Below are positions 23,918-25,567 of a DNA stretch of 38,641 bases, in pieces. The stretch is from Paracoccaceae bacterium. Lineage in GTDB: Bacteria > Pseudomonadota > Alphaproteobacteria > Rhodobacterales > Rhodobacteraceae. Positions within the stretch are counted from its first letter, which is position 1. The number at the start of each line of letters is the position of its first letter. A program made the translations under genes and the position numbers. The DNA lies in the NCBI GenBank assembly GCA_007131685.1, contig SLQD01000085.1, positions 1 to 38,641 of the forward strand, given 5' to 3'. Under the pieces are notes generated by a model. It did no database searches, was not told the DNA's origin, and saw only the letters and a program-made list of their open reading frames with translations.

Positions 23918-25386
23918 TTCTTGCGCCCCATGCCGCCGAGCCCCTGCGGCAGCCCGCCGCCGCCCATGCCGGGCATCTGCTGGCCGACGCCGCGCGCCAT
24001 CTGCTGCAATGCGGCCTGATCGACCTGCTCGGGCTGTCCGCCGCCCTTGCCCATCATCCCGGCCATGGCCTGCTTGAGCATGCCCTTCTTGCCCATCTTC
24101 TTCATCATGTCGGCCATCTGGCGGTGCTGCTTCAGGAGCTTGTTGAGCTCGGGCACGTCGAGCCCGGCGCCCTTGGCGATGCGCTTCTTGCGGCTGGCCT
24201 GCAGGATCTGCGGGTTGGCGCGTTCCTTCTTCGTCATCGACTGGATGAGCGCGATCTGGCGGCGCAGCATCGTGTCGTCGAAGCCCGCGCTCTCGGCCTG
24301 CTTGGCCATCTTGCCCATGCCGGGCATCATGCCCATCACGCTCTCCATGCCGCCCATCTTGAGCATCTGCTCGAGCTGGGTTCGCAGGTCGTTCATGTTG
24401 AACTGACCCTTCTGGAAGCGCTTCATCATGCGCTCGGCCTGCTCGGCCTCGAAGGTCTCCTGCGCCTTCTCGACGAGCGCGACGATGTCGCCCATGCCGA
24501 GAATGCGCCCGGAGATGCGCTCGGGATCGAACGCCTCGAGCGCGTCGGTCTTCTCGCCGAGGCCCACGAAGCGGATCGGCTTGCCGGTGACCGCGCGCAT
24601 CGACAGCGCTGCACCCCCGCGCCCGTCGCCGTCCATGCGGGTGAGCACGACGCCCGAGATGCCGACCTTGCCGTCGAACTCCGAGGCGACATTGACGGCG
24701 TCCTGCCCGGTCAGCCCGTCAACGACCAGCAGCGTCTCGCGCGGGGCGACGGCGTCGCGCACCGCCTGGACCTCGTCCATGAGCACATCGTCGATATGCA
24801 GCCGCCCGGCGGTGTCGAGGATATAGACATCGTAGCCGCCGAGGCTTGCCTGCGTCTTCGCGCGTTTGGCGATCTGGACCGCCTTTTCGCCGGGCACGAT
24901 CGGCAGCGTGTCCACCCCGATCTGGGTGCCGAGCACGGCGAGCTGCTCCATTGCGGCGGGGCGGTTGGTGTCGAGCGAGGCCATGAGCACCCGCTTGCCC
25001 TCGCGCTCCGAGAGGCGGCGGGCGAGCTTGGCGGTCGTGGTGGTCTTGCCCGAGCCCTGAAGCCCGACCATCAGCACCGGCGCGGGCGGGTTGTCGATCT
25101 TGAGCGCACCGGGGTCGTCCTCGCCCGCGAGCGTCGCCTTGAGCTCGTCATGGACGATCTTGACGACCTGTTGACCCGGCGTGACCGATTTCGTCACCGC
25201 CGCGCCGGTGGCCTTGGACTGCACGCGCTTGATGAAGTCGCGCGCCACCGGCAGCGAGACATCGGCCTCCAGCAGCGCCACGCGAACCTCGCGCAGCGCC
25301 GTCTTGACATCCTCCTCGGTGAGCGCGCCCTGCCGGGTGAGGCGCTCGAACACGCCGGAGAGGCGTTCGGACAGATTCTCGAACAT
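23914..25386 (-). CDS. ffh: signal recognition particle protein
   Basis: MFENLSERLSGVFERLTRQGALTEEDV; G-domain VGLQGSGKTTTTAKLA, DTAGRLHIDD; Met-rich M domain. SD GGAGGG before the ATG at 25386. Confidence 0.97.
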   Translation of the reverse strand: MFENLSERLSGVFERLTRQGALTEEDVKTALREVRVALLEADVSLPVARDFIKRVQSKATGAAVTKSVTPGQQVVKIVHDELKATLAGEDDPGALKIDNPPAPVLMVGLQGSGKTTTTAKLARRLSEREGKRVLMASLDTNRPAAMEQLAVLGTQIGVDTLPIVPGEKAVQIAKRAKTQASLGGYDVYILDTAGRLHIDDVLMDEVQAVRDAVAPRETLLVVDGLTGQDAVNVASEFDGKVGISGVVLTRMDGDGRGGAALSMRAVTGKPIRFVGLGEKTDALEAFDPERISGRILGMGDIVALVEKAQETFEAEQAERMMKRFQKGQFNMNDLRTQLEQMLKMGGMESVMGMMPGMGKMAKQAESAGFDDTMLRRQIALIQSMTKKERANPQILQASRKKRIAKGAGLDVPELNKLLKQHRQMADMMKKMGKKGMLKQAMAGMMGKGGGQPEQVDQAALQQMARGVGQQMPGMGGGGLPQGLGGMGRKK

Positions 25387-25419
25387 GCGCGGCCCTCCAG
25401 ACCCGTTTCCCTTGCCCCG

Positions 25420-25448
25420 AACATAAGACGAGGCGCGCCAATCACCAA
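25420..25448 (-). promoter_or_regulatory. candidate proximal ffh promoter TTGGTG-N17-TATGTT
   Basis: -35 25448-25443, -10 25425-25420. Confidence 0.35.
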
Positions 25449-25451
25449 CGG

Positions 25452-25527
25452 CACCCGCGGGCGAAACCTCGCTGACGGGTGGCGATCCCGGCGCACGGGC
25501 CGGGACCGGAAGCGCGGACACTTCCGG
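25452..25527 (-). ncRNA. candidate structured 5' leader upstream of ffh with three consecutive hairpins
   Basis: Minus strand: CCGGAAG-N8-CTTCCGG (25527-25506), TCCCGG-N8-CCGGGA (25505-25486), CACCCG-tca-GCGA-ggtt-TCGC-ccg-CGGGTG (25481-25452); all arms perfect. Confidence 0.5.
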
Positions 25528-25537
25528 ATGATGGGCG

Positions 25538-25567
25538 CCATTAGCCGCAGCCCGGCACCGAAGTCAA
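25538..25567 (-). promoter_or_regulatory. candidate distal ffh promoter TTGACT-N18-TAATGG
   Basis: -35 25567-25562, -10 25543-25538, just upstream of the three-hairpin region. Confidence 0.45.

Follow-up and report, generated by a model that had tools for sequence, protein, structure and literature searches.

The ffh operon and its upstream region

The DNA analysed in our study, hereafter the window, is a stretch of 38,641 nucleotides from a Paracoccaceae bacterium (contig SLQD01000085.1). On its minus strand, profile searches identified ffh, the gene for the signal recognition particle (SRP) protein, at 25386-23914 (ATG at 25386; TIGR00959, 570 bits against a cut-off of 473), followed at 23917-20667 by the remaining genes of a putative operon, which NCBIfam matches assign to a GNAT-like protein, chorismate mutase, rpsP (S16), rimM, trmD, rplS (L19) and rpmE (L31). 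These searches confirm the genes for the SRP protein, S16, RimM, TrmD, L19 and L31 that a preliminary description, made from the sequence alone, had placed in this operon. The GNAT-like acetyltransferase gene, located between ffh and the chorismate mutase gene (23917-23399, minus strand), gave a weak match below the cut-off.

Upstream of ffh and on the same strand, direct reading of the sequence identifies a sigma-70-like promoter, P1 (TTGACT-N18-TAATGG, 25567-25538), whose two boxes occupy 25567-25562 and 25543-25538; with an N17 spacer, its -10 would read CTAATG. Transcription from P1 is expected to start at about 25531-25533, just 5' of the first of three hairpins. Hairpin 1 (H1, 25527-25506) consists of CCGGAAG (25527-25521), the N8 loop TGTCCGCG and CTTCCGG (25512-25506). 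Hairpin 2 (H2, 25505-25486), which abuts H1 with no gap, consists of TCCCGG (25505-25500), the N8 loop CCCGTGCG and CCGGGA (25491-25486). Hairpin 3 (H3, 25481-25452) is formed by CACCCGT (25481-25475), C, A, GCGA, the loop GGTT, TCGC, CC and GCGGGTG (25458-25452), so that its internal positions are a C25474.C25459 mismatch and an A25473.C25460 wobble-like pair. The three hairpins and their perfect arms lie exactly where the preliminary description had drawn them. H3 is followed by a U-rich 3' tail (25451-25438) in which comparison within the family reveals a conserved NTTTG/TTGG element (ATTGG in the window), by a proximal promoter, P2 (TTGGTG-N17-TATGTT, 25448-25420), whose -10 ends 33 nt before the ffh ATG, and by the ffh Shine-Dalgarno sequence GGAGGG (25398-25393), also read directly.

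When the 151-nt leader was folded, only 4 of 200 dinucleotide shuffles folded better (z = -2.24). H2 as drawn is absent from the minimum-energy fold of the window sequence alone; it is the comparative data that support it. Covariation gives no support to the extended basal stem GAUCGCCA/UGGUGAUU of the single-sequence fold, which was rejected.

The covariance model of the Rfam ffh motif (RF01793) matches 25496-25444 over the full model (positions 1-52) with 57.6 bits, the gathering threshold being 35, and this is the only copy found in the genome of the window. H3 is the core of this motif: it is a bulged hairpin with the conserved cytosines in its internal loop (C25474.C25459), and it lies upstream of ffh in an alphaproteobacterium, with the TIGR00959 match directly downstream. 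The preliminary description had considered that the leader might be the alphaproteobacterial Rfam RNA named ffh, and this is correct. The element is therefore not new. In 2009, Meyer et al. already described RF01793 from Rhodobacterales, Rhizobiales, Sphingomonadales and Pelagibacter as a single bulged hairpin that precedes ffh, noted that it is unlike the portion of 4.5S RNA to which Ffh binds and suggested a role in cis regulation (PMC2704228). Metatranscriptomes have been cited as evidence for its transcription in relatives (PMC2704228), and it appears among the leader RNAs in an RNA-seq study of Bartonella (PMC7717549). It has been in Rfam since about 2009; we found no function for it in the literature searched, and both the name it bears and the prevailing suggestion implicate Ffh.

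The window shares H3 and its C mismatch with the published motif, together with the 5' flank GGGAUCGCC, the beginning of the 3' tail, the position upstream of ffh and the alphaproteobacterial distribution. Whereas the published motif is one hairpin, and the RF01793 model omits H1 and H2 except for one arm of H2, our study adds the conservation and covariation of these two hairpins, the promoters P1 and P2, the reduction of the mismatches to a single invariant C.C, since the inner one behaves like a pair, and the retention of the motif before rpsP, without ffh, in the PS1 clade.

RF01793 was present, in one copy each, in 118 of the 121 sampled genomes of the same family (the three without a match being G402, G411 and G467) and in 112 of 387 genomes of the class, which included SAR11 and PS1. 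The Ffh start adjoins the motif at 177 of the 180 loci fetched, and the three exceptions, in which the motif precedes rpsP, all belong to PS1. One further locus (L203) appeared to carry ffh without rpsP; its ffh frame is broken and fused to other sequence, probably through an assembly fault, and it was set aside.

Conservation of the hairpins and of the two promoters

The three hairpins are real and under selection. Of 115 leaders of the same family, nearly all have both H1 and H2. In an all-against-all covariation test in which no structure was given and the null was simulated on the tree (by our own R-scape-like script), five H3 pairs reached E = 0.005 and two H2 pairs E = 0.015 and 0.04; H1 covaries most weakly of the three, its best pair having E = 0.41. 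With the structure given, 95.1% of the cells were paired across 53 relatives (94.1% in H1 and 100% in H3), compared with 85.6% in shuffles and 35-51% when the structure was slid along the alignment, and 15 of the 24 pairs had changed on both sides (4/7 in H1, 5/6 in H2 and 6/11 in H3). The preliminary description had named a lack of compensatory changes across relatives as the observation that would count against it; such changes are present in the family.

A covariance model of the three hairpins gives the window, which is itself among the model's sequences, 85.6 bits, and it matches 82 of 82 loci from other members of the class and PS1, most of them preselected by their RF01793 match. A class-level alignment of 83 rows, which was fitted to this model and is thus biased toward its pairing, has C.C at the outer mismatch of H3 in all 83. 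The inner position is more varied (A.C in 50 rows, A.A in 11, C-G in 8, G.U in 6, U-A in 6 and A.G in 2). Because this inner position behaves like a paired or wobbling one in many lineages, H3 holds one invariant C.C. The TTTG/TTGG element occurs at a fixed distance 3' of H3, even where P2 cannot fit, and the tail contains 5.6 T per 14 nt across the family versus 2.2 in the remaining spacer, with T runs of mostly 2-4. Three loci of the Rhodobacteraceae (L124, L130 and L135) carry tandem repeats of the 3' arm and tail of H3 (for example GCCCATGGGGGCGCGTGTCGTTTGG) between H3 and P2.

Both promoter patterns recur in relatives, which suggests that P1 and P2 serve as promoters there as in the window. 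The P1 pattern (TTGAC-N16..18-[TC]A) was found upstream of the hairpins in 111 of 115 family members, against 1.6 expected from shuffles, and it ends about 47-62 nt before H3. Of the 115 family members, 97 have room for P2, defined as an H3-ATG distance of 55 nt or more, and the P2 pattern (TTGnnn-N16..18-[TC]AnnT) was found 3' of H3 in 69 of these; shuffles gave a mean of 4.3 and a maximum of 9. Its -10 mostly lies 33-41 nt before the ATG, also in members whose H3 has been displaced by insertions to 110-170 nt from the ATG. None of the 18 family members with an H3-ATG distance below 55 nt (21-54 nt) has P2, and it is also absent from the SAR11 and PS1 examples, where this distance is about 28-36 nt. 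Two consequences follow. First, since P2 is conserved 3' of H3, ffh mRNA can start past the hairpins in most Rhodobacteraceae, the window included. Second, in the 18 family members, SAR11 and PS1 there is no room for P2, and therefore transcription has to traverse the hairpins to reach the operon. Of the two promoters that the preliminary description had read at these positions, both are thus conserved; its leader transcript keeps a promoter before the hairpins and is not the sole route to ffh mRNA. In Rhodobacteraceae, the -35 box of P2 falls on the aaUUgUG end of the Rfam consensus (25448-25443 in the window), and some of the conservation of this end may therefore reflect the promoter and not the RNA.

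The leader in the PS1 clade

The three loci, among the 180, that have no adjacent Ffh come from one family with genomes of about 1.4 Mb. Our PS1 set comprises 18 genomes (G039, G145, G226, G294, G356 and G504-G516; loci L209, L222-L226, L238-L246, L248 and L250), which are mostly incomplete, six of them being at least 90% complete, and the clade was assigned through named relatives (L248 and L250). A search for the SRP GTPase domain common to Ffh and FtsY (PF00448) gave no score above the cut-off in any of the 18, whereas the domain was recovered from each of 14 controls and from 3 of 3 further members of the class. In addition, the Ffh model had no match in five PS1 genomes, and 4.5S RNA was found in 0 of 5, with neighbours and controls positive. 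To judge from these genomes, the whole SRP pathway seems to have been lost in this free-living marine alphaproteobacterial clade, an apparent loss that is noteworthy by itself. Our literature search found no report of SRP loss in PS1 or of an alphaproteobacterial S16 leader.

RF01793 was identified in 14 of these 18 genomes. The gene order is dapF (divergent), leader, rpsP, (rimM), trmD and rplS, and some 35 nt separate the motif from rpsP. Pairing of H3 is 100% across 12 distinct PS1 sequences, in which 9 cells carry changes on both sides, and the C.C mismatch, the tail and a P1-like TTGAC promoter are retained in most copies. Because the leader is kept with compensatory change, the RNA stayed under selection without detectable Ffh. 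Between rpsP and trmD, rimM was not detected in SAR11 (L189, L190 and L192) or in some PS1 loci (L238-L241 and L250), in which they differ from most of the other class members examined. With no rimM detected in the operon in SAR11 or in one PS1 genus, the constant partners of the leader are S16, TrmD and L19.

Possible roles of the leader RNA

PS1 can be regarded as a natural deletion experiment: it speaks against sensing of Ffh and leaves S16, TrmD and L19 as the candidates. We favour, at about an even chance, a cis-acting leader of three hairpins transcribed from P1 whose input is a ribosome-related product of the operon and not Ffh; this reading is preferred because the RNA always heads the operon and because co-transcription is obligatory where P2 is absent. 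More tentatively, the ffh motif may be the ribosomal protein leader of an ffh-rpsP-rimM-trmD-rplS operon, sensing S16, L19 or TrmD, which would co-regulate SRP with the supply of ribosomes and would have outlived the loss of SRP in PS1. As is expected of such leaders, it is a structured RNA before ribosomal protein genes whose association with them does not depend on other genes: in PS1 it immediately precedes rpsP, with no ffh between them, and rpsP, trmD and rplS are downstream of it in other lineages too. Candidate cis leaders have been reported before rpsP/rimM in Flavobacteria (S16) and before rplS (L19), with autoregulation inferred (PMC7247131). They come from other phyla and are likened to the RNA studied here by gene context; by this analogy, the leader would bind a ribosomal protein and regulate the operon.

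Under this mechanism, P1 would give rise to a 5' leader RNA acting in cis on the operon that it heads, and S16 would be the likeliest ligand, followed by L19 or TrmD. Binding to H3, through the C.C mismatch and the conserved tail, could lead H3 and the U-rich tail to stop transcription or to block initiation, while P2 would provide basal ffh operon mRNA without the hairpins in Rhodobacteraceae. Given its U-rich tail, H3 may terminate transcription imperfectly or only under certain conditions. Several observations speak against the favoured reading: transcripts from P2 would escape control in most Rhodobacteraceae; a scan of the window found no intrinsic terminator that satisfied its criteria, and the T runs past H3 are short; and a discrete 115-nt RNA of Sinorhizobium meliloti, SmelC778/Sm5, has been typed as trans-encoded (PMC2873474).

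This last RNA introduces a serious rival, to which we assign an appreciable though clearly smaller probability, namely that P1 directs a stable trans-acting sRNA of about 100-115 nt ending at H3 and its U-rich tail, with the operon served by P2. In S. meliloti 1021, SmelC778 (= Sm5; chromosome 3522269-3522383) is a 115-nt RNA from the dapF-ffh interval that has been typed 1 (trans-encoded); microarray signals and a Rho-independent terminator, the latter predicted, are reported for it (PMC2573895, PMC2873474). It resembles the RNA studied here in its interval, its ffh sense and its sigma-70 promoter. It is probably the same element as RF01793, an equation made by position alone, as neither paper labels it RF01793 (PMC2573895, PMC2873474). 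Rfam also types RF01793 as an sRNA, the tail after H3 is U-rich, and P2 separates the RNA from the operon in most Rhodobacteraceae. A stand-alone RNA would nevertheless have to account for the constant genomic position at the head of the operon in one copy per genome, for the obligatory read-through in PS1, SAR11 and 18 of 115 family members, and for the listing as a leader RNA in Bartonella (PMC7717549). The two readings could be reconciled if the leader were an attenuator whose action left behind a short, stable RNA.

Improbable, in our assessment, is a structural 5' UTR without a specific ligand, in which growth-rate control resides in the promoters and the hairpins serve to shield the P1 transcript or adjust initiation. 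Three strong hairpins at the extreme 5' end and two conserved promoters speak for it, but the C.C in 83 of 83 class rows and the TTTG tail at a fixed distance point to sequence-specific recognition.

Autoregulation by Ffh itself through the leader is less probable still, and we consider it very unlikely. In its favour, almost every genome with the motif has it ahead of ffh, and Ffh is an RNA-binding protein; such regulation could still operate where ffh is present. It cannot be the general explanation, because PS1 keeps the RNA, with compensatory change, without detectable Ffh, FtsY or 4.5S RNA; the leader thus does not depend on the presence of Ffh and probably does not sense it. From the structured leader on an ffh-ribosomal operon proposed in the preliminary description, the structure stands, with covariation in its support, while Ffh autoregulation as a general explanation does not. 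Meyer et al. saw no resemblance to the Ffh-binding part of 4.5S RNA (PMC2704228), and the model of this partner RNA of Ffh (RF00169) does not match the leader, to which it shows no homology; H1 has only CCGGAAG in common with the loop of the genome's own 4.5S RNA.

A switch based on sequestration of the Shine-Dalgarno sequence was rejected, as hairpin and Shine-Dalgarno do not coevolve (own versus swapped duplex energy, rank 0.51) and accessibility is not reduced relative to shuffles. The three-hairpin model, the C.C mismatch and the two promoters provide a guide to what to clone and mutate. Mimicry of SRP RNA by H1 was likewise discarded, since relatives alter CCGGAAG while the stem is kept, for example as CCGAAGG/CCTTCGG.
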